Below, piece by piece: positions 1,921-21,935 of a stretch of 21,935 bases of DNA; position 1 is the first letter of the stretch; each line of letters opens with the position of its first letter. The stretch is from a bacterium. Lineage in GTDB: Bacteria > CAIJMQ01 > JAADFP01. The translations under genes were made by a program, and so were the position numbers. Below the pieces are notes generated by a model, which saw only the letters and a program-made list of their open reading frames with translations, was not told where the DNA came from and ran no database searches. The stretch spans positions 1 through 21,935 of the forward strand of contig JALUVB010000297.1 of assembly GCA_027021085.1 (NCBI GenBank). Direction: 5' to 3'.

Positions 1921-1938
1921 CTCTCTCCTTTACTATTC

Positions 1939-1962: not shown

Positions 1963-1974
1963 AGAGCTCCCTTC

Positions 1975-2030
1975 GGTCTAAAGTCTATGGTCTTCGGTCT
2001 AAGAGTTGTGAGTTATGAGTTGTTAGTTCC
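1975..2030. repeat. Degenerate heptad array A1, eight 7-bp units
   Basis: Reads as uninterrupted 7-mers: GGTCTAA, AGTCTAT, GGTCTTC, GGTCTAA, GAGTTGT, GAGTTAT, GAGTTGT, TAGTTCC. The unit sequence drifts from a GTCTA type to a GAGTT type while the 7-bp spacing is kept. Confidence 0.8.
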
Positions 2031-2077
2031 CTGTCCCGGCGCCTGTCGGGGCACCTGTGCCCCCGCCTGTATTCTGT
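2030..2077. repeat. 12-bp periodic GC-rich tract, four units
   Basis: CCTGT recurs at 2030, 2042, 2054 and 2066, exactly 12 bp apart, with GC-rich spacers (CCCGGCG, CGGGGCA, GCCCCCG) and an AT-richer last one. It sits between two heptad arrays and contrasts sharply with the local base composition. Confidence 0.7.
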
Positions 2078-2113
2078 ATCTTCCCTCACTACTTTCTTGC
2101 ATCTTCCCTTTCT

Positions 2114-2148
2114 CAGTCTACAGTCTAAAGTCTATGGTCTATAGTCTA
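2114..2148. repeat. Degenerate heptad array A2, five 7-bp units
   Basis: Consecutive units CAGTCTA, CAGTCTA, AAGTCTA, TGGTCTA, TAGTCTA share the core GTCTA with the first units of array A1. Confidence 0.8.
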
Positions 2149-2160
2149 AAATGTTCCCCT

Positions 2161-2195
2161 CGCTACCCGCTACTCACTACTCGCTACTTGCTATA
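2161..2195. repeat. Degenerate heptad array A3, overlapping the stop codon of the EAL gene
   Basis: Consecutive units CGCTACC, CGCTACT, CACTACT, CGCTACT, TGCTATA. The last unit contains the minus-strand stop codon (2191-2193) of the upstream gene, so the array begins exactly at the end of coding sequence. A 19-nt stretch (2163-2181) is repeated exactly at 10721-10739. Confidence 0.8.
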
Positions 2196-4170: not shown

Positions 4171-4174
4171 TTTA

Positions 4175-6376: not shown

Positions 6377-6502
6377 ATTCTATCTTCGTCTTGCATTGAA
6401 ACAACCGCCATGCTCGCTTAAACTCAGCAAAATCTACTCACTCCTTCCATTCTACATCTTTCTCCCCTATTAGCAAACTAAAGAGAACAACTTACTTATT
6501 CT

Positions 6503-8356
6503 TTACCTTATTTCTCCCGCAAACTGAAATCCTTTTTCAAATATTGCAATGCACGCTTCCACTACCTCAGGGTCGTACAGCTTTCCCTTATTCTGCGAAA
6601 TTTCCTCCAGGGCCTTATCTATCCCCAGGGCTGCCCGATAGGGACGGTGGGAACTCATTGCCTCCACCACGTCAGCCACTGCCACAATCCTGGCCTCAAA
6701 GGTAATCTTGTATCCCTTTAAGCCTTCCGGATAACCCGAGCCATTTATTCGTTCATGATGCTGGAGAACAATTTCCCCTACCGGCCAGGGAAACTCTATT
6801 CCCTTTACTATCCCGTATCCCAGCTGGGGATGCACCTTTATCAGGGCAAATTCTGTTTCCGTTAACTTCGTGGGTTTATTCAAAATTTCTGCCGGGACTG
6901 AGATCTTCCCTACATCATGAATACTGGCGCCTAAGCGAAGCCCTTCTATTTTATCCGACATCACCCCAATTTCCCTGGCAATAGCCGAGGCAAGAACGGA
7001 AACTTTTCTCTGGTGGCCAGCTGTATAGGGGTCTCGTTTTTCTATGGTGGAGGAAATAGCTACGACAGTTTCTTCCAGGACCCTTTTCAGCTTCTCCAGG
7101 TTTTCCCTGGCTTCTTTTTCTGCCCGCCTGCGCGCAGTAATATCCAGGAGTGTACCAACAATCGCAGGGCTTCCCTGATAATCAACCCTCCTTCCCAAAG
7201 CTTCACACTCAATAACCTTATTATCCTTCCTTAGTCCCCGGAACACATAATGCACACCGTCTAACTCCCCCTCCATTCTACGCTTTATCACTTCTTTTAC
7301 CGATCCTCTGTCCTCGGGATAGGTAAGATCAAGGGGACCTTTCTTCCCTACTATTTCTTTCACACTGTAGCCAAAAATTCTTGCCAACGCCGGGTTTACA
7401 TAAAGGAACTTATTCTTTCTAAATATGTAAACCCCCACCAGCGATTCATCCGTCACCATACGGAACTTTCTCTCGCTACCCAGTATTTCTTCTTCCATCT
7501 CCTTCTTTCGGGAAATATCCCTCAGAGTCACCAAGGCAGAAAGATTACCCTGGTAATTGATTCTGTTAGCTACCACCTCTATCCAAAATTCTTTTCCGTC
7601 TTTTTTCCTGACTTTATACTCAGATAAAATACGCTTCTTACTTTTTATAACTGCATTCAAATCTCTTTTTATTTCTTCTCTGTATTCCGGCAGAATAAAA
7701 TCAAAGGCATTCTTTCCTATTCCCTCTTCTATCTCACGGAAGCCAAACATTTTTGCTGCAATCTCGTTTCCGTACAGGACTTTCCCACTGCCTGCAATTA
7801 TCAAAATCCCCTCACCTATTGCTTCTAAAATTAATCTGGCCCTCTCCTCAGACTCTTTCAGAGCCTTCTCCATCCGCTTTCGTTCAGTAATATCCTTGGT
7901 AACATGGACTGTACCAAGAATCTCGCCTTTCTTATTAAATATGGGTGAAGCAGAGACCTCGAGTTCAATTCCTAAGTAAGGCTCGAAAAATTCTTTCGTG
8001 GAGGGTTTTCCTGTTTCCAGCACCTCTTTGTGGGGACAACCAGGAAGAGGCCCGTCTCTCCCGTGGAAAATCCGGTAACAGGTTTTACCCACCAGTTCCT
8101 GGGGCTTCATCTTAAAGAAATCAGCACAGGGTCTATTCACCCTGATAAAGTGATAATCTGTATCATGGATGGAGACCCAGTCGGTAATAGAGTCAAAGGT
8201 AGTCCTCCACTCTTCCGCTGCATGCTTTATAATCTTTTCCTTTTTCTTACGTTCAGATTCTTTCCTTTTTAACTTGGAAACAGACTGGCGGAGCTTTACT
8301 ATTTCATCCATAATCTGATTCTTTGTATTACCCTGCCCTTCTATCTTTTTTATCAT
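6503..8356 (-). CDS. PAS-PAS-PAS-HD-GYP sensor phosphodiesterase
   Basis: A 617-residue protein with a basic coiled coil (about 15-45), three PAS domains (about 50-170, 170-290 and 295-415), a linker helix and an HD-GYP domain (425-610). Expected role: hydrolysis of c-di-GMP under control of the PAS sensors. HD appears as SIHDVGK; the second signature is HHERINGSGYP, with Asn in place of the usual Asp, so activity may be altered. The first PAS carries CYRIFHGR and a GCPH motif, a cysteine arrangement also seen in the diguanylate cyclase downstream. The ATG at 8356 follows a purine-rich AAGGGGG site. It is the first gene of the minus-strand signalling group, and twin ACAAATTTGT palindromes lie 51-84 bp upstream. 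No transmembrane helices are apparent. Confidence 0.9.
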   Translation of the reverse strand: MIKKIEGQGNTKNQIMDEIVKLRQSVSKLKRKESERKKKEKIIKHAAEEWRTTFDSITDWVSIHDTDYHFIRVNRPCADFFKMKPQELVGKTCYRIFHGRDGPLPGCPHKEVLETGKPSTKEFFEPYLGIELEVSASPIFNKKGEILGTVHVTKDITERKRMEKALKESEERARLILEAIGEGILIIAGSGKVLYGNEIAAKMFGFREIEEGIGKNAFDFILPEYREEIKRDLNAVIKSKKRILSEYKVRKKDGKEFWIEVVANRINYQGNLSALVTLRDISRKKEMEEEILGSERKFRMVTDESLVGVYIFRKNKFLYVNPALARIFGYSVKEIVGKKGPLDLTYPEDRGSVKEVIKRRMEGELDGVHYVFRGLRKDNKVIECEALGRRVDYQGSPAIVGTLLDITARRRAEKEARENLEKLKRVLEETVVAISSTIEKRDPYTAGHQRKVSVLASAIAREIGVMSDKIEGLRLGASIHDVGKISVPAEILNKPTKLTETEFALIKVHPQLGYGIVKGIEFPWPVGEIVLQHHERINGSGYPEGLKGYKITFEARIVAVADVVEAMSSHRPYRAALGIDKALEEISQNKGKLYDPEVVEACIAIFEKGFQFAGEIR

Positions 8357-8642: not shown

Positions 8643-8680
8643 ACATGCGGTTATGCAAATATAGGAAGATAGTTTTTAAG

Positions 8681-9043
8681 ATGCATGAATTAATAAAAGC
8701 TTTTAAAGCTCTGTCTGATGAAACGCGGTTAAGAATACTAAAGCTCCTGGAAGAGAGGGCAGAGCTTTGCGTATGCGAGATTATGCAGGCCCTGAATATC
8801 TCCCAGACCAGGGCATCCCGCAACCTGGGTATCTTAAAGGACGCAGGTTTTGTGCATGATAGACGAGAGGGATTATGGGTGTATTACTCAATCAACCATA
8901 AGAAAATAAGAGATTACCACCTGGAATTGACCGAATTGCTGAAAAAATGGTTGAACCAGGAAGAAATTATTAAAAAGGATAGAGAAAGATTAAAAAAGGC
9001 AGTTAAATTGAACAAGGAGAAAAAGTGTAATTATGGCTGTTAA
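8681..9043 (+). CDS. arsR: ArsR/SmtB-family arsenic-responsive repressor
   Basis: A 120-residue winged-helix repressor expected to release the ars promoter when it binds As(III) or Sb(III). It begins [20 protein letters not shown], the usual family start. The metal-site motif ELCVCEI holds the Cys-x-Cys pair typical of ArsR, followed by the recognition helix around [12 protein letters not shown]. The C-terminus adds two more cysteines (KKCNYGC), which could contribute to metal binding. I chose ATG 8681 over the in-frame ATG at 8645 because the TATAAT box ends at 8642 and homology begins at 8681; AGGAAG at 8663 is the likely ribosome site. The last 11 nt overlap the start of acr3, so the operon is translationally coupled. 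Autoregulation is the family norm. Confidence 0.93.
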
Positions 9044-10184
9044 GGAAGAGAAAAGACTATCAGGTTTTGAAAAGTACTTAACTTTCTATGTTTTACTTTC
9101 CATTGCGGCAGGGATACTTCTGGGAAAGACAGCTCCTCAGGTAGCAGAAAGACTGGATTCTTTTTCAATATACCAGGTATCCATCCCCATAGCTATCTGC
9201 CTGTTCTTCCTGATGTATCCCATCATGGTAAAGATTGATTTTTCCGAGGTGTTAAAAGCCGCCAAGACTCCCAAGCCCGTGGCCCTGACCCTCTTCATCA
9301 ACTGGGCAATTAAACCTTTCACCATGTACCTGATTGCCTATTTTTTCCTGGGCTACCTTTTTAAAGGATTTCTCCCGGGGACAGAAATCATCAAGACAGG
9401 CCAGGAAGTAGAACTATGGCGAAGTTACATCTCAGGGGCCATTCTTCTGGGAATTGCTCCCTGCACAGCCATGGTCTTGATGTGGAGCTACCTGGCAAAA
9501 GGCAACGATGGCCTTACCCTGGTATTAGTAGCCATAAACTCTCTCACCATGCTGGTGCTCTATGCTCCCCTGGGAGGTCTTCTCCTGGGCATAAATGCAA
9601 TGCCCATACCCTGGAAAACAATACTGTTTTCCGTGGCAATTTACGTGGCACTGCCTTTAATTGCCGGCTACTTTTCCCGCAAGTGGATTATCAAAGCTAA
9701 AGGATTGGAATGGTTTAATAAAAAATTCCTGCATCATCTCACACCGGTCAGCATAATTGCACTGCTGGCTACATTAGTGCTTCTTTTCTCCTTTAAGGGA
9801 GAAGTTATCATAAAAAACCCCCTCACCATACTCTGGATAGCCATCCCCCTCTTTATCCAGACAACATTTATTTTCAGTTTGGGGTACTTTGTCCTGGCAA
9901 GACTGTTAAAGCTATCCTACCAGGATGCCGCTCCTTCTGCCATGATCGGAGCCTCAAACCATTTTGAAGTAGCAATTGCCACGGCCACCATGCTCTTTGG
10001 ATTATCCTCGGGCGCAGCACTGGCAACCGTGGTGGGGGTTTTAATTGAAGTACCGGTAATGCTTATGCTCGTTTCAATATCCAAGCGAACCTGCCACTTA
10101 TTTGAAAAATGCCACCTTAACCTGCCCCAATGCAAATCGAAAGGGAGAGAAAGAAAGCCCTGCCTCACCTCTGGAGAAATATAA
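9033..10184 (+). CDS. acr3: Arsenite efflux permease, Acr3 family
   Basis: A 383-residue inner-membrane carrier of the BASS/Acr3 type with about ten hydrophobic segments, exporting arsenite using the membrane potential or proton gradient. Family hallmarks are the [19 protein letters not shown] stretch with the essential Cys (C144) and the [16 protein letters not shown] motif near the C-terminal end. The start codon overlaps the end of arsR by 11 nt. Its stop (TAA, 10182-10184) shares one base with the ATG of arsC. The C-terminal cytosolic tail contains three cysteines ([14 protein letters not shown]). Role and placement agree with an ordinary arsenic resistance operon. Confidence 0.95.
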
Positions 10185-10606
10185 TGAGAAAGAAAAAAGT
10201 GCTCTTTATCTGCACCCATAATTCCTGCCGTTCCCAGATGGCAGAGGGTCTGCTGCAAGCCTTATACGGAGATTATTACCAGGCATACAGCGCAGGGACC
10301 AGACCATCCCAAGTACACCCCCACGCAGTAAAGGCAATGGCAGAAATCGGCATTGATATTTCGGGGAATAAATCAAAGAGTATAAATGAATTCCTGGAAA
10401 CCGAATTTGACTACGTGGTCACTGTCTGCGACCAGGCAAATGAAACCTGTCCCATCTTTCCCGGAGGCGGGAAACACATCCATAAAAGCTTCCCCGACCC
10501 CTCACGCCTGGAAGGAAGTGAAAATGAAAAGATAAATGCCTTCCGCCAAACCAGAGATGAAATCAAGGACTGGATTAAAAAAACCTTTTCTCCCTCTAAT
10601 CCCTGA
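10184..10606 (+). CDS. arsC: Arsenate reductase, thioredoxin-coupled (low-MW phosphatase fold)
   Basis: A 140-residue reductase converting arsenate to arsenite for export by Acr3. The P-loop CTHNSCRS gives the C10-x5-R16 signature, and the redox cysteines C82 and C89 lie in VCDQANETCP, matching the numbering of the Staphylococcus aureus pI258 ArsC, so it should be thioredoxin-dependent rather than glutaredoxin-dependent. SFPDPS supplies the conserved Asp of the low-molecular-weight phosphatase fold. I chose ATG 10184, which overlaps the acr3 stop, over an in-frame ATG at 10130 that would add 18 non-conserved residues from inside acr3. It is the last gene of the operon; no convincing terminator follows. 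Confidence 0.94.
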   Translation: MRKKKVLFICTHNSCRSQMAEGLLQALYGDYYQAYSAGTRPSQVHPHAVKAMAEIGIDISGNKSKSINEFLETEFDYVVTVCDQANETCPIFPGGGKHIHKSFPDPSRLEGSENEKINAFRQTRDEIKDWIKKTFSPSNP

Positions 10607-10739: not shown

Positions 10740-10828
10740 AAACAGGGGATCTTTTATTCAAAAAAACTCGCACACAGCGTTAAACTTTAGGACTTTGGAG
10801 CAAAAATTACCAGCTTGATTTCTAAAAA

Positions 10829-10849
10829 TTGGTATGATAGTATTACCAA
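10829..10849. promoter_or_regulatory. Probable FadR/GntR-type operator overlapping the gntR start
   Basis: Inverted repeat TTGGTA (10829-10834) and TACCAA (10844-10849) with a 9-bp centre. The TGGT...ACCA pattern is the known style of FadR-subfamily operators. It contains TATGAT (10833-10838), a possible -10 box, and ends one base before the ATG at 10851. The regulator gene starting there is the obvious candidate to bind it (autoregulation). An extra ATTACCA at 10807-10813 repeats the right half-site. Confidence 0.5.
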
Positions 10850-10850
10850 A

Positions 10851-11564
10851 ATGGAGCTAAATTTTGAATCGGTAAAGAAGGTATCCTTATCGCGCTCGGT
10901 GGCAGAGAAGATAATCGGGTACATAAAGGAAGGCTATTTAAAGGTAGGAGATAAACTACCTCCCGAGAGAACTCTCTGCGAGAAATTCCAGGTAAGCAGG
11001 ACATCCCTCAGGGAAGGAATTAAAGCACTCACTCATTTAGGAATACTGGAGAGTATTCCCGGGAGCGGTGTATATGTAAGGACCGGTTTCCCGCGGAAAG
11101 TGCTGCAACGCAGGCTGGAGGAATTCAAGATAAACGAGGCCACCATATCAAATCTTATTGAATTCAGGGAAGGAATAGAATCTTTTATCGGGGAGCTGGC
11201 GGCAAAAAGGGCTACCGGGGAAGAAATCAGTGAACTGGAAAAGACCATAATAAAAATGGAGAAGAAAAAAGAAAAAGGAGTTTCCTTTGCCAAGGAAGAA
11301 GCTGAATTTCATAAGATTCTTGCCCGGGCTTCTCATAACGACTTTTTTGTAAAGGTGCTTGACTCCATTGTCCCTTCCATACTGCGCTGGGTATATGCAC
11401 GGGAATTGGTCATCGATCCGGATAGAGCCATTTCACTGCATAAAAGTATCCTGGAAAGCATCAAAAAGCGGGACAGGGAAGAAACCAAGAAAGCTATAAA
11501 GACCCACTTTGCCCATGCAAGGGAACTCATTAAAAAAATTACACCGGAAGACCAGGTTAAATAA
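10851..11564 (+). CDS. GntR-family transcription regulator, FadR/FCD subfamily
   Basis: A 237-residue DNA-binding protein: winged helix about 10-78 (PPERTLCEKFQVSRTSLREG, then GSGVYV) and an all-helical FCD ligand domain about 95-225 with the FHKILARASHNDFF and LHKSILESIKKRD motifs carrying the usual His metal/ligand positions. FCD domains bind small carboxylates such as lactate, gluconate or glucuronate, so a hydroxyacid or sugar-acid effector is plausible. It heads a same-strand run of eleven further genes and most likely controls it. Start is uncertain: ATG 10851 matches where homology begins but has no Shine-Dalgarno site, so the message might be leaderless; an in-frame TTG at 10815 would add 12 residues. 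The next gene follows after 12 nt. Confidence 0.88.
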   Translation: MELNFESVKKVSLSRSVAEKIIGYIKEGYLKVGDKLPPERTLCEKFQVSRTSLREGIKALTHLGILESIPGSGVYVRTGFPRKVLQRRLEEFKINEATISNLIEFREGIESFIGELAAKRATGEEISELEKTIIKMEKKKEKGVSFAKEEAEFHKILARASHNDFFVKVLDSIVPSILRWVYARELVIDPDRAISLHKSILESIKKRDREETKKAIKTHFAHARELIKKITPEDQVK

Positions 11565-11576
11565 GCGAGGAGAACC

Positions 11577-12521
11577 ATGTATTCTGAAAAGATAGGAGTT
11601 AAGGTTAGCGAGGCAAAAATAGGAGTATCCACAAATTCTCCCCATCTTTTAAAAAGGGAAGATTTCTACTGGCTGGACACCAACTTCCTCTCTGTAGATT
11701 TTATCCCTTTCACCGCAGGCATGGATTCCTATATGGAGGTAGAAGATAGAGAAGAATCCCCCGTTTTAGAAATAGAAGGTAAGCATTTAAGAGTTAAGGG
11801 GAGCTTTTCCGCCTGGAAAAAAGAAGCTAAAGACAAGAGATATACCCTCTTTGGAAACCTGGGGGTTCTTTCCGCCTGGGCTTTAAGAACCCTGGAAGAA
11901 GAACACGATATTTCCACTTTTCATGCCTGTGCGTTGGTAAAGGATGGAAAATTAATGATAATTTCCGGGGGGGCAGGAGCAGGAAAGACAGTATTTATTC
12001 TTTCTGCCCTAAAGAAAGGCTGGAAAATTTTTTCCACAGAATTTGTACACTTCCGGGTAAAAGAAAAGGTGGAGTTTTTCAAAGGTGCACTTAAAGATGC
12101 GGTGAGAGTGGATACATTTCAATACCACTTTCCGGAGATGGCAGAGAAATTAGGCGTAAACTTGAAGGAAGAGACGGGAAGTAAACTTATGGTAGATTTC
12201 TCCTCTTTCCGGGCAGAAGAAGACACGTTATCAGACCCTGAGATTACCCTAATTTTTCCCCACGTGGAGGAGAAAAGGGAAAGACTAATACATAAAGAGG
12301 TAAAAGATAGAGAGTCTTTGCTGAGAACACTTTTTAATACTGCTTCAGAAAAGATAGGAAAAAGCATGCTTCTCTACGGCAAATGGGCTGTTCCCGGGCT
12401 GGATACACTTTTTCTTGCAGAGAAGAGATTGGAAAGATTAGAAAAATTTTTAGAAAGGGGAAAGATTCAGAAATCTTTCCTCTGGGTTTCCGGAGTTAAA
12501 GAGGTAATAGAAATCGTTTAA
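11577..12521 (+). CDS. HPr-kinase-like P-loop protein
   Basis: 314 residues. The C-terminal half resembles the catalytic domain of HPr kinase/phosphorylase: STFHACALV, then a strong Walker A, SGGAGAGKT (residues 130-138), where HPr kinases have GxSGxGKS. The acidic SDD motif that normally follows is replaced by FSTEFVHFR, so the usual catalytic Asp is absent or substituted by Glu. The N-terminal 110 residues have no family I recognise. No HPr or other PTS gene is visible. Similar stand-alone HprK-like kinases occur in many bacteria and their substrates are mostly unknown; it could phosphorylate a small molecule or a protein of this cluster. It sits between the regulator (12-nt gap) and the ComA-like gene (24-nt gap), with GGAG just before the ATG. 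Confidence 0.6.
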   Translation: MYSEKIGVKVSEAKIGVSTNSPHLLKREDFYWLDTNFLSVDFIPFTAGMDSYMEVEDREESPVLEIEGKHLRVKGSFSAWKKEAKDKRYTLFGNLGVLSAWALRTLEEEHDISTFHACALVKDGKLMIISGGAGAGKTVFILSALKKGWKIFSTEFVHFRVKEKVEFFKGALKDAVRVDTFQYHFPEMAEKLGVNLKEETGSKLMVDFSSFRAEEDTLSDPEITLIFPHVEEKRERLIHKEVKDRESLLRTLFNTASEKIGKSMLLYGKWAVPGLDTLFLAEKRLERLEKFLERGKIQKSFLWVSGVKEVIEIV

Positions 12522-12545: not shown

Positions 12546-13385
12546 ATGGTCAGAGCGTTTGCAGATTTCATCCCCATCCCTGAGGAGACCGGAGTGGTAA
12601 TGGTAATAGAAAAGGAGTTTGGTCCCCGCAGCGCAGAAGACTGGACAAACATAGCTGCCGGTATTGTCGATATCGTAAAAGTCACTTTTGGCACCGGTGC
12701 ACTATACAACGAGGAGATACTGAAAGAGAAACTCAGTGTTTACAAAAATGCCGGGATAAACCCCATGATAGGAGGCACGCTTACCGAGGTAGCCATACTT
12801 ACAGCCGGAGGCTACTCCGGGAAAGAACTGGAAGGTTATCTTAAGTACGCCAAGTCACTGGGATTTACCTACATAGAATTCTCTGACGGCTCCATATACA
12901 TTCCTGATGAGAAAAGAAGTGAAATAATTAGAATGTGCATAGGAGAAGGATTTACCGTGATATCCGAGGTGGGCAAGAAGGATCCCAAAAAGGATGCCTT
13001 AATAACCATGGAAAAACGAATTGAACTGATGGAACAGGACCTGAAAAGTGGGGCAAAAATGGTGATTATCGAGGCCAGGGAATCCGGTAAGGGTATTGGG
13101 GTCATGGACAAGGCAGGAAAGGTTGACTTTACCGAGCTGGATGCCATTATCAGTGCAGTGGGGCTGGAGAATACCATGATAGAATCACCGGAAAAATCGC
13201 AGCAGCAGGCAGTTTTCCTGCAATACGGACCAAAGGCAAATATCGGCAACGTGCAACCGCGGGATATTCTTTCCGTGGGCGCTTTAAGAGGAGGATTGAG
13301 AGGCGATACCATCAGTGCCTTAAGAAAAGAAGCCTGGGAAAAATACCATGCTTCCCAAAACGCTCCTGAAGAATACAGGATTTAG
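12546..13385 (+). CDS. comA: Phosphosulfolactate synthase (ComA) family protein
   Basis: A 279-residue TIM-barrel protein. In methanogens ComA adds sulfite to phosphoenolpyruvate to give (R)-phosphosulfolactate, the first step of coenzyme M synthesis; Bacillus YitD belongs to the same family. Conserved family motifs visible here are VKVTFGTG (45 is Lys), GFTYIEFSDGSI, EVGKKDPKKD (141-150), IEARESGKGIG, ESPEKSQQ and LRGGLRGDT (247-255), so the active site looks intact. It is somewhat longer at the N-terminus than the roughly 250-residue methanogen enzyme. No ComB, ComC, ComD or ComE homologue is seen in the window, so it is not part of a visible coenzyme M operon. A strong AAAGGAGG precedes the ATG. 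Direction and product in this organism are unknown. Confidence 0.85.
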   Translation: MVRAFADFIPIPEETGVVMVIEKEFGPRSAEDWTNIAAGIVDIVKVTFGTGALYNEEILKEKLSVYKNAGINPMIGGTLTEVAILTAGGYSGKELEGYLKYAKSLGFTYIEFSDGSIYIPDEKRSEIIRMCIGEGFTVISEVGKKDPKKDALITMEKRIELMEQDLKSGAKMVIIEARESGKGIGVMDKAGKVDFTELDAIISAVGLENTMIESPEKSQQQAVFLQYGPKANIGNVQPRDILSVGALRGGLRGDTISALRKEAWEKYHASQNAPEEYRI

Positions 13386-13417: not shown

Positions 13418-14410
13418 ATGATTCTTGTAGGCTGGATAGTAATGGCGATAGTTGCCTATGCCTCTATGCTGATAAACCGTTTAGTAGTAATAAACGGAAC
13501 ACATCCGTTTGAGGCTATTGCAGTAGGCGTGGTTCTGGGGGCTCTGGCCAGGAACACCGGGTTAATTCCGCCCCGCTGGGAACCGTACCTGAAGAAATTC
13601 GAAATGCCTTTGCTCTGGGGAGTAGTGCTCCTGGGAGCAGGCTTCACCACTGAAATCGCCAGGGCTGAACCTTTAAGTTTAATAGTCATCTTTGTAACCA
13701 TGGCCATAGGATACTGGTTCATTTATTTCCTGGCCAGGAGAGTAGGATTACCCAAAAAATTGAGTGCCTTACTTTCGGTAGGCACCACTATCTGCGGCGG
13801 TTCTGCCATAGCCATAACCGCCCCCTTAATTAAGGCAAAGGAAGAGGAGACCAGCTATGCAGTAAGCACCATAGTAATTGCTGCCTTTATTCTTCTCATT
13901 ACTCTTCCTTTTCTGGGAAAGGTAATGAACCTCTCTCAAACCGCATTCGGTGTTTGGGCAGGAACCTCTGTGCATAATACTCCACAGACTATAGGAACAG
14001 GGTACATGTACGGAGATAAGGCAGGGCAGGTAGCTACCATGGTGAAATTAACCAGAAATATGTTCATGATCGTGGTAGCCTTGTTTGTCTCCCTCTGGAT
14101 AGGGACACAGGAATCAGCTGATAAGAAACTCGGGAAAAAAGCTATACTTAAAGCTTTCCCCTGGTTCCTCTTCGGATATATTGGTATGGCTATTTTCAAA
14201 CTGCTTGGATTTTTCACCCCACAGGGAATCTACTGGTTTCTTAAATCGGGGAAATTCCTTATACTTATGGGTATGGTAGGGATTGGTTTCGGCACAGATT
14301 TCAGGCATATCAAGAAGCTGGGGATTAAACCGCTCATGGTAGGAATTGTCGGGGCTATAGTAGTAACCGCTATAAGTCTGCTAATGGTTAAATCCATAGG
14401 ATTCCATTAA
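13418..14410 (+). CDS. YeiH/UPF0324-family membrane protein (putative sulfate-type exporter)
   Basis: A 330-residue polytopic membrane protein with about ten hydrophobic segments. It matches the YeiH/UPF0324 family by VGTTICGGSAIAITAPLIKAK (about 125-145, quoted in part), GTSVHNTPQTIGTGYMYGD and KLTRNMFMIV. The family is annotated as putative sulfate exporter, but transport has rarely been shown. Next to a ComA homologue an exporter or importer of sulfite, sulfate or a sulfonate is a reasonable guess. AAAGGAGG stands 7 nt before the ATG; gaps of 32 nt upstream and 9 nt downstream place it in the operon. Confidence 0.85.
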   Translation: MILVGWIVMAIVAYASMLINRLVVINGTHPFEAIAVGVVLGALARNTGLIPPRWEPYLKKFEMPLLWGVVLLGAGFTTEIARAEPLSLIVIFVTMAIGYWFIYFLARRVGLPKKLSALLSVGTTICGGSAIAITAPLIKAKEEETSYAVSTIVIAAFILLITLPFLGKVMNLSQTAFGVWAGTSVHNTPQTIGTGYMYGDKAGQVATMVKLTRNMFMIVVALFVSLWIGTQESADKKLGKKAILKAFPWFLFGYIGMAIFKLLGFFTPQGIYWFLKSGKFLILMGMVGIGFGTDFRHIKKLGIKPLMVGIVGAIVVTAISLLMVKSIGFH

Positions 14411-14419
14411 AGGATAGAT

Positions 14420-15646
14420 ATGCTTTTCCATATCCCTTACGGAAAGGGGTTCTTAGACCTGGATATTAAGGAGCGGGAGGGAGAAATTTTCCTCCCGCGC
14501 TCCTTACCCCCCAGCAAAAATTTACGGGAAGAACTAAAGAAAAAGTTAGAATTTCCCCTGGACACCCCTCCCCTCTCCCAATTATGCCGAGGGAAGAAAG
14601 AGGCCTGTATCGTAGTGGATGATAATACCCGCCCGCCCCTGGGGAAAGTTATATTTCCTTACCTTCTTCCCTATTTAAAGGAGCACGGGATAGAAAAAGC
14701 AACTATTCTTATAGCCCTGGGACTGCATACCCCGGTGAAGAAGGAAAGAATAGAGGAACTCCTGGGAAAACTCCCTTCCTGGGTGAAGGTAAAAAACCAC
14801 TGTATAGAAGAAACCAGAGAGGTGGTAAAAATTGACGGGGTAAGCGTGAAGTTGAATTCTTCCTTCCTCAATGCTCCCTTGAAAATTATTATCGGAGATG
14901 TAGAACTCCACCAGATTTTTGGCTACGGGGGAGGAGCAAAAAGCCTGCTGCCGGGTATCTCCGATAGGGAAAGCACAACTTACATTCATTCATTTCTTAT
15001 CCATCCTGATTCAGGCCCGGGTAAACTTGCGGAAAACCCCGTACAGAAATTCCTGGGCAAATTATACGATAAAATAAAGGTAGATTTTTCCCTGCAATTT
15101 GTTTTGAACGAGGAGGAAGAGATTGCCAATATCTTTTCCGGTAGCTTAAAAACAAGCTTCCTGGAAGGAAAGAAACTGGTGGACAGGATGAACAAGGTCA
15201 AAGTGGAAAAAGAATTTGACATATTAGTGCTCTCACCCGGAGGATTTCCCAGGGATATTGACCTTTACCAAACGCAGAAAGTAATAAATATGAGCTTCAG
15301 GGCATTAAAAAAAGGCGGGAAAATGATAATTTTTTCCGAATGTAGCGAGGGTGCAGGTCCCAGCGATTTTGAAAAATGGATAGAAAAGAATTTGACCGGT
15401 GAGGAGGTGGAGAGAAAGGCCAGGGAGAAATTCTCCATGGGATTGCACAAGCTGTATCTATTTTTTAAAGGCACCCGGGGAAGAGAAGTATTTCTCTTCT
15501 CTTCTCTGCCGGAATCGATTGTAAAAGGAGTATTTCTGCATCCGATTGACCTAAACGGAGCAAAGAGCCTGATGGCAAAGGGTGAGAAGATAGGGTTTGT
15601 CCCCTATGCCACCACCACTCTCCTGGAGAAGACAAATGGGAATTAG
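14420..15646 (+). CDS. larA: LarA-family nickel-pincer racemase/epimerase
   Basis: 408 residues, close to the usual 420-430. LarA enzymes use a covalently bound Ni-pincer nucleotide to racemise or epimerise 2-hydroxyacids by hydride transfer. Residues matching the cofactor and active site of the Lactobacillus enzyme are visible: DDNTRP (67-72), H103 in ALGLHTP, H164 in GDVELHQIF, K174 in GGGAKSLLPG (cofactor attachment) and H190 in TTYIHSF. The C-terminal domain has LSPGGFPRDIDLYQTQK. The substrate cannot be read off, since the family includes lactate, malate, phenyllactate and gluconate-type enzymes. larB, larC and larE, needed for the cofactor, are not in this window. The end overlaps the start of the EamA gene by 11 nt. 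Confidence 0.87.
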   Translation: MLFHIPYGKGFLDLDIKEREGEIFLPRSLPPSKNLREELKKKLEFPLDTPPLSQLCRGKKEACIVVDDNTRPPLGKVIFPYLLPYLKEHGIEKATILIALGLHTPVKKERIEELLGKLPSWVKVKNHCIEETREVVKIDGVSVKLNSSFLNAPLKIIIGDVELHQIFGYGGGAKSLLPGISDRESTTYIHSFLIHPDSGPGKLAENPVQKFLGKLYDKIKVDFSLQFVLNEEEEIANIFSGSLKTSFLEGKKLVDRMNKVKVEKEFDILVLSPGGFPRDIDLYQTQKVINMSFRALKKGGKMIIFSECSEGAGPSDFEKWIEKNLTGEEVERKAREKFSMGLHKLYLFFKGTRGREVFLFSSLPESIVKGVFLHPIDLNGAKSLMAKGEKIGFVPYATTTLLEKTNGN

Positions 15647-16607
15647 TCCCTACTTTGCTACTGTCTTCCTGTCCTTTATCTGGGCAGTGTATATTGTTCT
15701 TTCCCGCCTAGCAGTACAGCAGGTACCCCTCTTTGCCGTAGGATTCTTCTCCCGCCTGGTAGCTGTGCTGGGGCTGAGTATATGGGTAATAGGTAAAAAA
15801 GAGATTAAAAAACTTTTTCATTTGAAGAAAGAACAGTTTTATCTTCTCCTGCTTATTGGTTTTTTTGCTTTCCTCCTGGATGCTGCTGCTTTTTTAGGCC
15901 TGCGATTTTCCACTGCCACTAAAGGAGCCCTTCTGCTCAGGACAGATATCTTCTTCATAGTAATATTCAGCTACTTTTTCCTGGGGGAAAGATTTAAAAA
16001 AATAGAGTGGGCAAGCATGGCTTTCATGCTGGCGGGAGCTGTCCTGATAATGAACATCAACCTGAAAGAAGTGCGCCTTTCTTCCTGGGGAGATGCTTTA
16101 TTTATTCTGAACGCTTTTTTAATCACTTGCAATGCTTTTATCATCAAGCTAAAATTGCAGGAGGTTTCCGATACTACTATTGCTTTTTACAATAATTTAT
16201 TTGCCACTTCGTTTTACGGAGTAGCTTTCTTCCTGGGAGGTTACGGCAACATGCTGGCCGCTGGATTAAAAAGAATTCCCTACCTTACTTACATATTGGT
16301 GGCCATGGGTATATGCGATGTCTTCCTTTTTGTTACCTATTATCATGCCCTTCGCAGGCTGCCGGTATGGATAGTAAGAACCCTGCTCCTTCTCATTCCC
16401 TTGTGGAGCATTCTTTTAGGCTCTATCTTCTTAGGAGAAAGGCTAAATATATCTCAAAGCATCGGTACGATTCTTCTCCTGGGAGGTTCTGCAGGAATTA
16501 TTCTCAGCAGGAGAAAACCTCGCAATTCCCATATCCAGGCAACGGAAGTTAGAAAGAGAATTTGGAGAAAGGGGATTTCTTCATTACAGGTAAGAAGGGT
16601 ATTATAA
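15636..16607 (+). CDS. EamA/DMT-superfamily transporter
   Basis: A 323-residue inner-membrane protein with about ten hydrophobic helices and the two-repeat EamA layout: first half with SFIWAVYIVLSRLAV and LGLRFSTATKGALLLRTDIFF ending in FFLGERF, second half ending in SIFLGERLNISQSIGTIL. The LGER motif at the end of each repeat is typical. Substrate unknown; the family exports or imports amino acids, sugars and other metabolites. Start: ATG 15636, with GGAGAAG 6 nt upstream, overlapping the end of larA; an in-frame TTG at 15597 would add residues lying inside larA and is unlikely. It could carry the substrate or end product of this cluster. Confidence 0.88.
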   Translation: MGISPYFATVFLSFIWAVYIVLSRLAVQQVPLFAVGFFSRLVAVLGLSIWVIGKKEIKKLFHLKKEQFYLLLLIGFFAFLLDAAAFLGLRFSTATKGALLLRTDIFFIVIFSYFFLGERFKKIEWASMAFMLAGAVLIMNINLKEVRLSSWGDALFILNAFLITCNAFIIKLKLQEVSDTTIAFYNNLFATSFYGVAFFLGGYGNMLAAGLKRIPYLTYILVAMGICDVFLFVTYYHALRRLPVWIVRTLLLLIPLWSILLGSIFLGERLNISQSIGTILLLGGSAGIILSRRKPRNSHIQATEVRKRIWRKGISSLQVRRVL

Positions 16608-16630: not shown

Positions 16631-17491
16631 ATGACAAGAGGCGAAGAAGTAAGAAAACTGCTCTCCATGGGACCGGAAGAATTGGTGGAAAAGGCAAAAG
16701 GCAAGCTAATAGTTCTGGATACTCTGGATGAGTTACATGAGCATTTTGCCCGCACTATTGCCGATGAAATAAAAGGAAATAACGAAAAAGGCAAAGCGAC
16801 AAAACTAATCCTTCCGGTGGGCCCCGTAGGACAGTATCCCATCCTGGCGGAAATTATCAACCAGGAAAGGATAAGCCTGAAAAACTGCTATTTCTTCTAC
16901 ATGGACGAATATTGCGACGATAGCGGCAAAGCCATCCCTCCCTCTCATCCCCTCAGCTTCCGGGGCGAGATGGAACATCTCTTCTTCTCCAAGATTGACT
17001 CTGAATTGAACATCCCGGAAGAGCAGCTCATCTTCCCCTCGCATGAGAACCTGCACCTCTTGAAAGGTAAGATTGAAGAAGCGGGAGGAATAGACACCTG
17101 TTACGGAGGCATAGGAGTGCATGGACACGTAGCCTTTAACGAACCGGAACCAAACATACGCTATACTGACCCGAGGCTGGTTTACCTTAATCAATACACC
17201 ATAACTATTAATGCTATCCGTTCGGAAGTAGGCGGAGACCTGGTCAACTTCCCCCGCAAGGCAGTGACCCTGGGAATGAATCAAATATGCGGGGCAAGAA
17301 GGGTAAGGCTCTACTGCCGGAATGACATAGTGGATATCGACTGGGCAAATCTGGTGCTAAGGTTGGCAGTATTGGGTACACCGGGCGACGATTACCCGGT
17401 CACTTACCTTACAGAACATCCTGACTACGTAGTGGTAACCATTAAGAATACTGCTGAAAAACCAAAAATTATTCTTTCCCTGCCCTATTAA
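16631..17491 (+). CDS. Divergent NagB-fold protein (glucosamine-6-phosphate deaminase-like)
   Basis: 286 residues. The fold is set by FYMDEY (89-94), HPLSFRG, GGIDTCYGGIGVHGHVAFNEPEP (in part, 152-174) and the following core. NagB normally opens the sugar-6-phosphate ring and converts the 2-amino group. Two key sites differ: the phosphate-binding loop, usually PTGxTP or ATGSTP, reads PVGPVGQYP (62-70), and the catalytic Asp of GxDGH is His (GVHGH, H164). The Asp of MDEY, the His of GH (H166) and Glu171 are kept. It is therefore unlikely to be a standard GlcN6P deaminase; an isomerase acting on a different acid-bearing sugar is possible. The N-terminus is about 25 residues longer than usual. 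AAGGAGG precedes ATG 16631; an in-frame TTG at 16562 lies inside the EamA gene. Confidence 0.75.
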   Translation: MTRGEEVRKLLSMGPEELVEKAKGKLIVLDTLDELHEHFARTIADEIKGNNEKGKATKLILPVGPVGQYPILAEIINQERISLKNCYFFYMDEYCDDSGKAIPPSHPLSFRGEMEHLFFSKIDSELNIPEEQLIFPSHENLHLLKGKIEEAGGIDTCYGGIGVHGHVAFNEPEPNIRYTDPRLVYLNQYTITINAIRSEVGGDLVNFPRKAVTLGMNQICGARRVRLYCRNDIVDIDWANLVLRLAVLGTPGDDYPVTYLTEHPDYVVVTIKNTAEKPKIILSLPY

Positions 17492-17512: not shown

Positions 17513-18757
17513 ATGAAAATAGTAGTATTTGAAGACGAAGGATACAAGAACCTTCACCCCCTGACGCTTTTCCGGCCTGCTTTTGAATTAAGGTGTGGAT
17601 TCACTACGCTCCTGGAGAAGATTGCCCGGAAATTCCCAGAGTATCCTTTTCTTCTTTTCACCCGGGATTACCTGATTCCTACCCTGAAGAAAAGGTGGGC
17701 ATATTCTATAAACAAGTTGGAAGAATTGAAAGAAGATGATATTCTATTCCTGAACGGCAGAGTGCTGGTAGACAAAAACTTCTCCCTGGAGCCGGAGGGA
17801 GAAGAAATAAGCGGGAGAAAGGGAAACCAGGTAGTTTACCTTCGGGCAAAGAAAGAGACTACAAGAAAAATTCAGTACTCCAGCCTGGCAGAACTCATTG
17901 AGAAGCTCTCTTCCCTCTTGCCCTCCCGGGAAGTGGAAGACACTCTTATAAACTATCCCTGGGACCTGATAAATCTTAACGGGGAAGCCATTGAAGATGA
18001 CTTCCAGCATGTGGGAGGAAAAATACTCGGCTCTCTTTCCAGTCAGGCAAGCATTATAGGAGACAAAGGAAAAGTATTCATAGGAAAAGGAGCCATTGTA
18101 CATCCATTTGTAGCACTTGATGTAAGAGAAGGCCCCATAATAATTGACGAAGAAGTAGAGATTTACCCCGGCTCTCATATTCAGGGCCCCACGGCAATAG
18201 GCAAAAAGTCCCATATAGTAGGAGCCAAGGTAAGAGAAGGATGCTCATTCGGTCCTGTGAGCATGATAGGAGGCGAGGTAGAAGAATCTATTTTCCAGGG
18301 TTATGCCAACAAGTTCCACGAAGGCTTCCTGGGGCATGCCTACATCGGCGAATGGGTAAACCTGGGTGCCCTCTGCACAAATAGCGACCTCAAAAATACT
18401 TATGGCCCGGTAAAAGTATATATAAACGGGGAAATGATGAACTCAGGAGAGCTCAAAGTAGGCTCCTTTGTAGGAGACCATGCCAAGCTGGGAATAGGCA
18501 CCCTTCTCAACACCGGGACAGTAATCGGGGCAGGAAGTAATGTGTTTGGGGGAGAAATGCCTCCCAAGTTTGTTCCTTCCTTCTCCTGGGGTTCGGGAAA
18601 GGAGTTTGTGGAATTCCGCCTGGAAAAAGCCTTAGCCACAGCCCGGGTGGTAATGAGCCGAAGAGACGTGGTAATGAGCGAGGAAGATGCTGAACTAATA
18701 AAGAAAGTTTTTGAACTCACCCAGGCAGAAAGAGAAAAATTCGGGGTAAGGAGGTAG
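17513..18757 (+). CDS. GlmU-like sugar nucleotidyltransferase/acyltransferase with beta-helix
   Basis: 414 residues. The N-terminal half starts VVFEDEGYKNLHPLTLFRPAF and ELRCGFTTLLEKI, the signature of the alternative bacterial GlmU-like family rather than canonical GlmU (no GxGTRM loop). The C-terminal half (about 165-385) is a left-handed beta-helix with hexapeptide repeats (IIDEEVEIYPGSHIQGPTAI, VGAKVREGCSFGPVS, IGTLLNTGTVIGAGSNVFGG), as in acyl- and nucleotidyl-transferases. It probably makes or modifies an activated sugar; the donor and sugar are not known. AGGAGG precedes the ATG, with 21 nt after the NagB-like gene and 3 nt before the first oxidoreductase, so it is tightly in the operon. 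Confidence 0.78.
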   Translation: MKIVVFEDEGYKNLHPLTLFRPAFELRCGFTTLLEKIARKFPEYPFLLFTRDYLIPTLKKRWAYSINKLEELKEDDILFLNGRVLVDKNFSLEPEGEEISGRKGNQVVYLRAKKETTRKIQYSSLAELIEKLSSLLPSREVEDTLINYPWDLINLNGEAIEDDFQHVGGKILGSLSSQASIIGDKGKVFIGKGAIVHPFVALDVREGPIIIDEEVEIYPGSHIQGPTAIGKKSHIVGAKVREGCSFGPVSMIGGEVEESIFQGYANKFHEGFLGHAYIGEWVNLGALCTNSDLKNTYGPVKVYINGEMMNSGELKVGSFVGDHAKLGIGTLLNTGTVIGAGSNVFGGEMPPKFVPSFSWGSGKEFVEFRLEKALATARVVMSRRDVVMSEEDAELIKKVFELTQAEREKFGVRR

Positions 18758-18760: not shown

Positions 18761-19807
18761 ATGTTGAATTACGGAGTCATTGGATGCGGAGCAGTATTCG
18801 AGGTCTTCCAGGTAAATGCGCTTGCGCAGGCTTCCGGAGTAAAACTCCTCGCCGTTTGTGATATTAACCAGGATAGGCTCTCGGCCATTCAGAAAAAATA
18901 CCAGGTTCCCCGCACCTATACGGATTACCATGCACTTCTGCAGGACAAAGATATAGAGGTGGTAATGATTAATCTTCCCCAGCATCTTCACCGGGAGATA
19001 GCTCTAAAATCTGCCCAGGCAGGGAAACACGTCTATGTAGAAAAGCCCATAGCCACTACCCTGAAAGATGCCCGGGATATCATAGAATCCTGCAGGGAAA
19101 ACGGGGTAAAACTCTGCGTAGGCCACCAGAGAAGATTTATTACTACAGAACTAAAGGCAAAAGAAATGATTGAAGCAGGTGAACTGGGCAAAATCTTCAA
19201 AGTGCGGGCAGTGGCCTGCTGGTTTGAAGCAAGGAAAAGCCTTCTCTCCAAAGACTGGTGGTATAAAAAGGAATGCGGCGGAGGCCCCCTCATGCGCTGG
19301 GGTGTGCATAAAACCGACACCTTGCATTTCCTGCTGGGGAAAAAACCTTTGCGGGTATATGCAGAAATGGGGCAGTTCGTGCACCAGGGAGGAGGAGTAA
19401 CAGTGGAAGATAATCTCCTGGCTCTCTACCGCTTTGAAGGAGATATAATAGGAGAACTGGAAGTAAGCAATTCCCAGCACGAATGGAAATTCGGAGGAGA
19501 ATACATAGAAATATTCGGGGATAAAGGCACCTTGAGATACTGGCCTTCGGAAGGGATAATGAGAATATACATCCCCGGAAATAAGGACCCCCTTCCCGGG
19601 TGTGAAGAGACCATAGAAATAATTCCTGACGGGAAAGAGATGATAAGGATACACGAATCCTTTGTGAAAAGTATAGAAAAGAATACTTCACCACCGGTTA
19701 CCGGAGAAGAGGGATATGTTGCTTTAGAAATGGCACTGGGTGCATACTATTCTGCAGAAACGGGTAAAGCAGTGCGGTTTCCCCTGACGAATGAAGCAGG
19801 AGGTTAA
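18761..19807 (+). CDS. Gfo/Idh/MocA-family oxidoreductase (copy 1)
   Basis: 348 residues, NAD(P)-dependent sugar or polyol dehydrogenase family. Rossmann part: GVIGCGAVFEVFQ at the N-terminus, then VVMINLPQHLHREIA and the EKPIATTL motif (about 94-101) carrying the conserved Lys. The C-terminal domain has GGGPLMRWGVHKTDTLHFLLG with the usual His/Asp pair, although the standard MDxGxH is MRWGVH here. It cannot be assigned a substrate; the family oxidises or reduces sugars, inositols and sugar nucleotides. AGGAGG for its start is inside the end of the GlmU-like gene (3-nt gap). The stop is one base before the second oxidoreductase start, so the two are probably made together. Confidence 0.87.
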   Translation: MLNYGVIGCGAVFEVFQVNALAQASGVKLLAVCDINQDRLSAIQKKYQVPRTYTDYHALLQDKDIEVVMINLPQHLHREIALKSAQAGKHVYVEKPIATTLKDARDIIESCRENGVKLCVGHQRRFITTELKAKEMIEAGELGKIFKVRAVACWFEARKSLLSKDWWYKKECGGGPLMRWGVHKTDTLHFLLGKKPLRVYAEMGQFVHQGGGVTVEDNLLALYRFEGDIIGELEVSNSQHEWKFGGEYIEIFGDKGTLRYWPSEGIMRIYIPGNKDPLPGCEETIEIIPDGKEMIRIHESFVKSIEKNTSPPVTGEEGYVALEMALGAYYSAETGKAVRFPLTNEAGG

Positions 19808-19808
19808 A

Positions 19809-20804
19809 ATGCTTAAATGGGGCGTGATTGGAGCAGGAGGATTCGCTGACCGGCGGGTTATACCTCAAATATTAGAAGCAAAAGGCTGTGAATTAGAAGC
19901 AGTCATGGTAAGAGACAGGGAAAGAGCAGAAAAAATTGCCGGGAAGCATGGGGCTAAAAAGGCTTACGATTCCGTGGAAAAACTTCTTGAGGATGCCGAG
20001 ATAGATGCAGTTTATATCTGCACTCCTCTCTACCTTCACCGCGAGCATGCGCTCCTGGCAGCCGGGAAAGGCAAACACATCCTATGTGAGAAACCCATGG
20101 CTTTGAACCAGAGGGAATGCGAAGAAATGATAGCGGTATGCCGGGAAGCAGGGGTAAAATTAATGATAGGATTCATGATGCGGTTTCATCCTGTTCACCG
20201 GAAAGCAAAAGAGCTGGTAGAAAAAGGCACTCTGGGTGATATTGTGCTGGCAAACATCCAGAACTTTCTCTGGTACCCGCGCACGGAAGGAGCCTGGCGC
20301 CAGACCCCGGAATTAGGGGGAGGCGGAGCATTGATGGATGTTGGTTCTCATTGCATTGACCTCCTATCGTTTCTCCTGGGAGAAGTCAAGAAAGTATCAG
20401 GGACAGTGGCAAATGCAATTTTTGACTACCCGGTGGAAGATACTTCCCTGCTAACCCTGCAATTTAAAGGAGGAGCCCACGGAGTGGTGGAAAACAGCTT
20501 TGCCATACCGCACCGGGAAAACCACCTGGAAATTTATGGCAGCAAGGGAACCCTGCTTATCTCCCGCAGTATAGGCCCTTTTAAAGATTTCCAGATGAAA
20601 CTAATTACAGAAGAGGGGGAAAAGATTTTTGTTATTCCTTACGAAGACCCTTACCGGAAGGAATTCGAAGAATTTGTTAAAGCAGTGGAAGAAGATACCT
20701 TACCACCCATTCCCGGTGAGGCAGGAAAAGAGAACATCAAAATAATAGAAGCCGCTTACCTTTCCTCCCGAGAAAAAGGGAAGTTCGTATATGTTGATAA
20801 GTGA
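19809..20804 (+). CDS. Gfo/Idh/MocA-family oxidoreductase (copy 2)
   Basis: 331 residues. Rossmann motif GVIGAGGFADRR, then VYICTPLYLHREHALL, EKPMALNQRECEEM and, in the C-terminal domain, GGGGALMDVGSHCIDLLSFLLGE with the usual MDxGxH. The catalytic Lys and His of the family are present. It differs clearly from copy 1, so the two are likely distinct steps or opposite halves of an oxidation/reduction pair rather than a fresh duplication. I chose ATG 19809 because AGGAGG sits just before it; an ATG at 19791 would add six residues and include the ribosome site. After it comes the only sizable gap (120 nt) in this part of the cluster, holding a long hairpin. Confidence 0.88.
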   Translation: MLKWGVIGAGGFADRRVIPQILEAKGCELEAVMVRDRERAEKIAGKHGAKKAYDSVEKLLEDAEIDAVYICTPLYLHREHALLAAGKGKHILCEKPMALNQRECEEMIAVCREAGVKLMIGFMMRFHPVHRKAKELVEKGTLGDIVLANIQNFLWYPRTEGAWRQTPELGGGGALMDVGSHCIDLLSFLLGEVKKVSGTVANAIFDYPVEDTSLLTLQFKGGAHGVVENSFAIPHRENHLEIYGSKGTLLISRSIGPFKDFQMKLITEEGEKIFVIPYEDPYRKEFEEFVKAVEEDTLPPIPGEAGKENIKIIEAAYLSSREKGKFVYVDK

Positions 20805-20924: not shown

Positions 20925-21569
20925 ATGAAATTCTTTCTGGATACCGCACGGGTTGAGGAGATTAAGGAAGCCTTGGAATGGGGAATATTGGATGGGGTAA
21001 CCACCAATCCCACCCATATTGCGGCCACCGGTAAAAAATTCAGGGAAGTGGCAGAGGAAATCCTCGCCCTGGTAGATGGTCCTGTCTCCCTGGAAGTGGT
21101 GAGTACAAACTGGAAGGGAATGGTGGAAGAGGCCAAGGACCTGGTTAAAATGGGAGAGAACGTGGTAATAAAAATTCCCTTGATAAGGGAAGGAGTGCGA
21201 GCAGTAAAAGAGCTCACTGAATTGGGAATAAAGACCAATGCTACCTTAAACTTCTCTCTTTCCCAGGCTTTAATGGCAGCAAAGGCAGGAGCTACCTATG
21301 TAAGTCCCTTTGTGGGCAGACTGGATGCCGTGGGGGAAGACGGGATGGGACTGGTAGAAAAAATCAAATTAATGCTGGATAACTACGGGTTCCAGACCCA
21401 GATCATAGTCTCTGCAGTACGTCATCCCATGCACGTGGTAGAAGCTGCTCTTATAGGTGCGCATGTATCCACAATGCGCTTTGATATAATGAAGCAGCTC
21501 TTTGAACATCCGCTTACTGACATCGGCTTGAAAATGTTCCTTTCTGACTGGGAAAAGGTTCCCAAGTAA
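20925..21569 (+). CDS. FSA/TalC-type transaldolase-family protein
   Basis: 214 residues, the length of the short transaldolase/fructose-6-phosphate aldolase type. The Schiff-base Lys is K83 in VVIKIPL; Asp6 in FLDTA, Glu57, T107 and the phosphate-side residues R132 (VGRLD) and S163/R166 (SAVRHP) are present. Compared with ordinary family members as I know them, three positions close to the active site are polar where hydrophobic or small residues are usual: TTNPTH for TTNPSL, TLNFS for TLIFS, and STMRF for the usual xTxPF. This suggests altered substrate choice. The ATG at 20925 has AGGAGG five nt upstream. Being at the end of a ComA/NagB-like cluster it may cleave or transfer a three-carbon unit from a ketose. 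Confidence 0.88.
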
Positions 21570-21578: not shown

Positions 21579-21935
21579 GTGGAAAAAGCTTTTGTTACGC
21601 CTTTAAGGTTTGCCTGTATAGAAGGCTGCGGCCTCTGCTGCAGTTACCGGGTAAAAGTGGAGAGAGAAGAAATTAAAAGGATAGAAAAACTGTCTCGGGA
21701 AAAGTTTCTGCGGGATGAAGGAGAATTCATGAGAAAACAGAACGGATACTGCATATTTCTGGACAAAGATAACAAATGCAGTATTTATTCTGAAAGACCA
21801 TCCCAATGCAGGACTTTCCCTTTTTACTTAGAGAGGGGGCAGATAGACATTGACCTGAGCTGTCCCGGGGTAGGTAAAGGAGAATTAGTAGAAAAATCCT
21901 TCTGGGCAGAACTGGTCAAATACTCCCCTGCTTCA
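21579..21935 (+). CDS. YkgJ-type Cys-cluster protein (partial, runs off right edge)
   Basis: 119 residues visible. Begins at GTG 21579, nine nt after the transaldolase stop, with AGCAGGTAAAG as a weak ribosome site. Motifs: FACIEGCGLCC, then NGYCIFLDKDNKCSIYSERP and CRTFPFY, the cysteine pattern of the YkgJ/UPF0153 zinc- or iron-chelating domain, and a further Cys in LSCPGVG. Function of the family is unknown; it is often annotated as an Fe-S or zinc oxidoreductase-like protein. Whether it belongs functionally to the cluster is unclear. Confidence 0.85.
   Translation, partial: MEKAFVTPLRFACIEGCGLCCSYRVKVEREEIKRIEKLSREKFLRDEGEFMRKQNGYCIFLDKDNKCSIYSERPSQCRTFPFYLERGQIDIDLSCPGVGKGELVEKSFWAELVKYSPAS

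Follow-up and report, generated by a model that had tools for sequence, protein, structure and literature searches.

A NagB-fold protein with a shortened phosphate loop as a candidate sulfoquinovose isomerase in a probable sulfonate operon

The stretch of DNA analysed here (hereafter the window) comprises 21,935 nucleotides of a bacterial genome, and every gene between position 10815 and the end of the contig (21935) lies on the plus strand, with short gaps in between (Table 1). Upstream of this run are an arsenic-resistance-like group at 8645-10606, with an ArsR regulator, an SBF-family (ACR3-like) efflux protein and an LMWPc arsenate-reductase-like protein, and, on the minus strand at 2-8356, four PAS signalling proteins in a row (GGDEF, GGDEF-EAL, MEDS-HD_5 and HD_5). 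The YeiH family is annotated as a putative sulfate exporter, and the closest NCBIfam model of the LarA-like protein was malate racemase LarAH6 (300 vs 500). The solved protein nearest to the window transaldolase was the T. maritima transaldolase 1vpx (267 bits), with the sulfofructose transaldolase 8bc3 at 170 bits. The two Gfo/Idh proteins were considered as sulfoquinovosidases and ruled out, since they lack the sulfonate residues and have other best PDB matches.

Table 1. Features of the window, followed by loci elsewhere that carry two gene types found near NagB-like genes
Feature	Location	Strand	Remarks
GntR/FCD-type regulator	10815..11564	+	Heads co-directional run; PF00392 + PF07729; 12 bases to next gene
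HprK/PEPCK-fold protein, putative sulfolactate kinase	11577..12521	+	P-loop GGAGAGKT; weak TIGR04352
ComA-family phosphosulfolactate synthase homologue, putatively in reverse direction	12546..13385	+	PF02679 250 bits
YeiH/UPF0324-family transporter, proposed sulfite/sulfate exporter	13418..14410	+	PF03601 212 bits; TIGR00698 125 vs 232.6
LarA-like Ni-pincer 2-hydroxyacid racemase, putative sulfolactate racemase	14420..15646	+	PF09861
EamA/DMT transporter	15597..16607	+	PF00892 109 bits; true start probably further downstream
NagB-fold protein, PVGP subfamily, proposed sulfoquinovose isomerase	16631..17491	+	286 aa
LPVGPVGQYP codons, residues 61-70	16811..16840	+	Shortened former phosphate loop
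IGVHGHVAFNEP codons, residues 161-172	17111..17146	+	His164 (E. coli Asp141), His166 (His143), Glu171 (Glu148)
Alternative GlmU-type nucleotidyltransferase/acyltransferase	17513..18757	+	TIGR03991 397 vs cut-off 225
Gfo/Idh/MocA oxidoreductase	18761..19807	+	Adjoins NagB-like also in L007, L009; no sulfonate-site residues
Gfo/Idh/MocA oxidoreductase	19791..20804	+	Adjoins NagB-like also in L007, L010
TalC/FSA-type transaldolase, proposed sulfofructose cleavage	20925..21569	+	TIGR00875 306 vs 246
YkgJ-type CxxCxxCC protein	21579..21935	+	Cut by contig end
PF04909-amidohydrolase loci	L012, L017, L019, L020, L022, L024-L026, L029, L030, L033-L037, L041-L043, L046, L052, L054, L072
Second NagB-fold type	L004:8985-9839	-
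Second NagB-fold type	L037:12739-13596	+
Second NagB-fold type	L055:7565-8410	+
Second NagB-fold type	L056:7767-8828	+

The open reading frame of the NagB-like protein is directly preceded by a strong AGGAGG ribosome-binding site. Its best curated model was nagB (TIGR00502), at 95.5 bits against a cut-off of 236.9; a profile search returned no Pfam family above threshold, and the curated matches were all of NagB type, with none to the YihS or SftI/SqvD families. GlcN6P deaminases are the nearest solved proteins. An AlphaFold2 model built on a 59-sequence alignment (pLDDT 95.9, pTM 0.92) matched B. subtilis NagB 2bkv with a VIA Z of 29.7 (234 aligned, rmsd 2.0) and E. coli NagB 1dea with a Z of 29.4, which confirms the NagB fold named in the first-pass annotation. 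Overall, GlcN6P deaminases scored higher (Z 24-30) than 6-phosphogluconolactonases (Z 18-23), which have the same fold and ~15-21% identity across aligned residues, whereas the window protein carries the NagB-type AFNEP active-site strand. The same genome also encodes a canonical NagB at another locus (L003, with LATGSTP and GGDGH) and a distant third NagB-fold protein (L002).

Residues were compared with E. coli NagB from MG1655, in which the catalytic and phosphate-ligand roles of the positions named here are established; identity to the window protein is 28% across 246 aligned positions. The first-pass annotation had described a rewritten phosphate loop and a catalytic Asp replaced by His, with MDEY, the second His and the Glu retained, and the alignment bore out each of these points. 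The loop reads LPVG--PVGQYP in place of LPTGGTP, with G43 and T44 deleted and T41 changed to Val, and D141 corresponds to His164, whereas D72, E73, H143 and E148 are retained as D92, E93, H166 and E171. Further differences from NagB are the replacement of the 6-phosphate ligand K208 by Ala239, a five-residue insertion after MDEY, and a new Arg244 where E. coli has Gln213; Arg172, also a 6-phosphate ligand, aligns to Ile196 but may be replaced by the adjoining Arg197.

A family scan with one genome per species yielded 68 loci from Chloroflexota, Lentisphaerota, Planctomycetota, Armatimonadota, Lokiarchaeota and others, and plasmid records added two further Haloarcula and Vibrio copies; no further carrier was found in seven genomes searched from the window's own phylum. 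The two-residue loop deletion, Arg244 and the retained D72/E73/H143/E148 are present in all 61 aligned members, T41 to Val and D141 to His each in 57 of the 61, the replacement of Lys208 in 59 and Trp238 in 58. The loop and His changes thus mark a widespread subfamily, here called PVGP, and not one odd protein. Because the changes are fixed and the catalytic residues invariant across the 61 members, decay or an isolated mutation was ruled out, in good agreement with the earlier reading that the gene is not decaying. That the protein is a normal GlcN6P deaminase whose changes are neutral, or comes from a decaying gene, could account for nagB being the best curated model (95 bits), but that score lies far under the cut-off of 237, the fixed changes leave the catalytic residues in place and the frame is intact with a good ribosome-binding site, making such an explanation extremely improbable. 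Because the wider subfamily includes clusters free of any sulfonate signal, the loop change by itself indicates a probable loss of 6-phosphate recognition in the subfamily and not sulfonate specificity.

In the synthesis of coenzyme M, ComA joins PEP and sulfite to give (2R)-phospho-3-sulfolactate, and a ComA gene is therefore a direct sulfonate signal. The window homologue scored 260 bits with TIGR03849, just under the cut-off of 280, and its relatives reached 350 (L007), 346 (L111), 340 (L121) and 285 (L123). It matched PDB 1qwg with 181 bits and, like the coenzyme M enzymes of the same family, retains the active-site motifs VGKK, ExRExGKG, E.P and RGLRGDT. It differs from that pathway in being paired with an HprK/PEPCK-fold protein and YeiH, and at one locus with pyruvate kinase; ComB, the phosphatase of the usual biosynthetic route of ComA, was not found in the window's or the L007 genome.

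The HprK-like gene was present in 5 of the 32 genomes tested (the window's, those of L007, L008 and L009, and one Chloroflexi genome with three copies), adjoining ComA in L007, L111 and L121 and lying near it in L123. Its model, built from 7 sequences, reached a pLDDT of 70.7 and matched PEP carboxykinase (Foldseek E 3.5e-6; VIA Z 12.8, 253 aligned, rmsd 4.6) more strongly than HprK/P. Because of the structural match to PEP carboxykinase, a phosphotransfer role is plausible. The L008 genome (L121) has the HprK-like, ComA, YeiH and LarA-like genes in the same order as the window, with identities of 49, 47, 63 and 49%, respectively.

In the Chloroflexi genome G035 (L123, 4417-8938), genes for a LarA-like protein, an HprK-like protein, pyruvate kinase (409 vs cut-off 306) and ComA (285.5 vs 280) are grouped in one run, with a PGDH-like gene and a TctA transporter close by, and this run looks like a stand-alone operon for sulfolactate degradation. 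Because pyruvate kinase sits between the kinase and ComA, we propose that ComA there would work in the PEP-forming direction.

Overall, we consider it probable that the window operon handles a sulfonate. The first-pass annotation had suggested another group at C6 of the substrate, for example a sulfonate or a carboxylate; the sulfonate gained support, all of it from gene context, and the carboxylate was dropped, with zero supporting genes found.

The closest relatives point to which sulfonate this may be. SqgA is an NAD+-dependent sulfoquinovosidase whose structures and sulfoquinovose contacts have been described (PMC10755693). The L007 NagB-like protein is 79% identical to that of the window, and its cluster shares the HprK-like, ComA, transaldolase, NagB-like, alternative GlmU and Gfo genes. 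Amid these shared genes is one for a Gfo/Idh protein that, among solved proteins, best matched the SqgA structures 8qc2 (147 bits) and 8qc3 (141.5 bits), and it keeps 8 of 8 sulfoquinovose contacts (K107, Y136, R166, L170, K172, E189, H193 and H321), including the sulfonate triad R166/L170/K172. The genome of L009, whose NagB-like protein is 70% identical to the window's, carries a PGK paralogue, SqgA, the HprK-like gene, ComA and YeiH in one run on a 6-kb contig. The SqgA-type protein of L111 keeps 7 of the 8 contacts (Y136 is Leu), and the YeiH beside SqgA, HprK-like and ComA (L111, L009's genome) is 72% identical to the window YeiH. At L021, an SqgA-like gene (best match 8qc2, 127 bits, triad kept) comes directly after the NagB-like gene, and a transketolase subunit is next. 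The window's own genome, a fragmented assembly of 307 contigs that is 93.9% complete, yielded neither an SqgA orthologue (best 29% identity) nor a YihQ-type SQase.

YihQ-family GH31 genes lie near the NagB-like gene in five loci (L016, L017, L020, L023 and L052) and scored 765-829 bits against a cut-off of 553 in the three that were scanned. Because Arg301, which we take to be the sulfonate-binding residue of YihQ, is Gln in all five, these neighbours were set aside as proof of sulfoquinovose and not used as evidence; they are perhaps glycosidases for a non-sulfonated 6-deoxy or plain sugar.

In the tree, the window copy pairs with L007 (100/96), followed by the Haloarcula copies, L009 and L010. 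A transaldolase accompanies the NagB-like gene in the window, L007, L009 and L014, and a transketolase does so in L021; the Haloarcula gene adjoins a ketohexokinase and a DeoC/LacD aldolase. The neighbours of distant members are amidohydrolases, GH4 proteins, PIG-L deacetylases and nucleoside genes, and these members may use other sugars. The PVGP subfamily, including the window member, could accordingly consist of general isomerases or deaminases that act on sugars lacking a 6-phosphate (either free aldoses or the free glucosamine that a deacetylation leaves), with the ComA/YeiH neighbourhood incidental. Such a role would suit the variety of the sugar clusters (amidohydrolase near or adjacent in 22 loci, GH4 in 10, PIG-L deacetylase in 5), the ketohexokinase and aldolase of Haloarcula, and the nucleoside hydrolase and ribokinase beside the Vibrio copy. 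However, SqgA, ComA and HprK-like genes occur in the operons or genomes of the nearest relatives (70-79%), and ketohexokinase with a DeoC/LacD aldolase is also a sulfo-EMP layout; we therefore regard this general role as rather unlikely.

Several further features of these contexts were observed. A PF04909 amidohydrolase lies near the NagB-like gene in 22 loci and is mostly directly adjoining. The distant Vibrio nigripulchritudo copy (38% identity) is on a conjugative plasmid (L006:5004-12230), among genes for a nucleoside hydrolase, adenosylhomocysteinase, adenosine deaminase, ribokinase and a nucleoside transporter. In four lineages, the PVGP-type copy is adjoined by a protein of a second, divergent NagB-fold type; it has a PVGPLDY-like loop, with Thr or Asn at Asp141 and Asp, Leu or Ser at Glu148, and may serve as a partner subunit or carry out a second step.

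Known sulfoquinovose isomerases were also searched for. The L009 genome has no homologue of SftI/SqvD or YihS, and in the window's and L007 genomes the SftI family was matched weakly, with no more than 176 of 700 bits, and the YihS family had no match. Certain NagB-like loci also hold an SftI-like isomerase (230-284 bits of 700). That sulfosugar-like clusters can contain both proteins is consistent with the NagB-like protein acting at another step or on another sulfosugar (a C6-sulfo epimer, sulfotetrose isomerisation or sulfogluconolactone hydrolysis), and the 6-phosphogluconolactonase structures do have the same fold. The NagB-type motifs (MDE, GHxAFNEP) and the better match to GlcN6P deaminases argue against this, as do, for a lactonase, the transaldolase and transketolase contexts, which call for an aldose-ketose isomerase. 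These alternatives are unlikely as a group, and the lactonase role in particular is disfavoured by the NagB-type motifs, close as the two folds are.

With regard to the lower pathway, the window genome encodes one aldehyde dehydrogenase, outside the operon. At L007, a YkgJ-type gene is followed by a type II GAPDH gene adjoining a PGK paralogue. The PGK encoded in the operon is, in both the L007 and L009 genomes, an additional copy, in which E. coli Arg62, the 3-phosphate arginine, is replaced by Asp. Downstream of the NagB-like gene at L014 (14131-18295), genes for an aldehyde dehydrogenase, a UxaA/GarD-type dehydratase and a LarA-like racemase stand in a row; UxaA/GarD-type dehydratases are the family of the sulfolactate sulfolyase SuyB.

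The alternative GlmU has no place in the proposed sulfoquinovose pathway. It adjoins the NagB-like gene in the window and in L007 (60% identical), and the window genome has no GlmS above the cut-off, which was found in 14 of 14 control genomes; these observations would suit a NagB-like protein working in reverse, from ketose and ammonia to glucosamine that feeds the alternative GlmU. Nevertheless, the alternative GlmU is not kept beside the NagB-like gene in most relatives, the phosphate ligands required for F6P/GlcN6P are lost, and the canonical NagB (L003) elsewhere in the genome could serve instead, so that we consider amino-sugar synthesis very unlikely. Given the absence of GlmS from a 94% complete genome (G000), the canonical NagB might itself work in reverse.

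The reading we prefer is that the window protein is a sulfoquinovose isomerase of a new fold type. Sulfoquinovose is 6-deoxy-6-sulfoglucose, a structural mimic of glucose 6-phosphate, and its isomerisation to sulfofructose is common to all three sulfoglycolytic types with C-C cleavage. A NagB-fold aldose-ketose isomerase without 6-phosphate recognition would convert sulfoquinovose to 6-deoxy-6-sulfofructose: His166 and Glu171 would open the ring, and Asp92 would transfer a proton from C2 to C1, the same shift that GlcN6P deaminase performs but with no amino group to expel. The operon transaldolase would then cleave sulfofructose to sulfolactaldehyde, which would be oxidised to sulfolactate; the LarA-like racemase, the HprK/PEPCK-fold kinase and ComA in reverse could convert sulfolactate to PEP and sulfite, the latter being exported by YeiH. 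We infer every reaction and direction of this route from the sequence changes, the fold, the operon, the gene order and the SqgA ligands of relatives. Because the fragmented genome yielded no SqgA or YihQ, the transaldolase looks ordinary, ComA falls under its cut-off, the alternative GlmU is unplaced and distant members possibly act on other sugars, we put the isomerase assignment at close to an even chance.

An entire, as yet undescribed route of sulfoglycolysis in uncultured bacteria, which would join the NagB-type isomerase and the transaldolase to a sulfonate analogue of lower glycolysis, the PEPCK/HprK-fold kinase, ComA and pyruvate kinase, is more tentative, and we hold it to be possible but clearly short of an even chance. 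In certain members, type II GAPDH and the PGK paralogue would make sulfolactate, which the kinase would convert to 2-phospho-3-sulfolactate; ComA, acting like enolase, would expel sulfite to give PEP, and pyruvate kinase would yield pyruvate and ATP. If true, this route would cleave the C-S bond independently of oxygen and radicals, with recovery of ATP.

Compared with YihS and SftI/SqvD, the proposed reaction is the same, but folds and families differ. With the sulfo-TAL pathway, the cluster has in common a sulfoquinovosidase (in relatives), an isomerase slot and a transaldolase; it differs in that the isomerase is of NagB type and that sulfolactate would be processed through LarA, the HprK-like protein, ComA and YeiH and not through export or SuyAB. 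A 2026 review (PMC12890257) names YihS and SqvD as isomerases and SuyAB or glycyl-radical enzymes for anaerobic C-S cleavage; it is silent on ComA and on any isomerase of NagB type. In the open-licence literature, we found no earlier description of NagB with sulfoquinovose or of ComA in degradation.

The membranes of plants and algae are rich in the sulfur sugar sulfoquinovose. Billions of tonnes of it are made yearly (PMC10755693, PMC12890257). Its breakdown by C-C cleavage is known to begin with isomerases of two unrelated families, and the NagB fold would be the third. Such a third type would add many unannotated sulfosugar degraders among Chloroflexi, Lokiarchaeota, Haloarcula and candidate phyla, whose enzymes currently carry amino-sugar or pentose-phosphate annotations. 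If ComA runs backwards beside a kinase, the C-S bond of sulfolactate would also be cleaved in a new manner, as an alternative to SuyAB and glycyl-radical enzymes.
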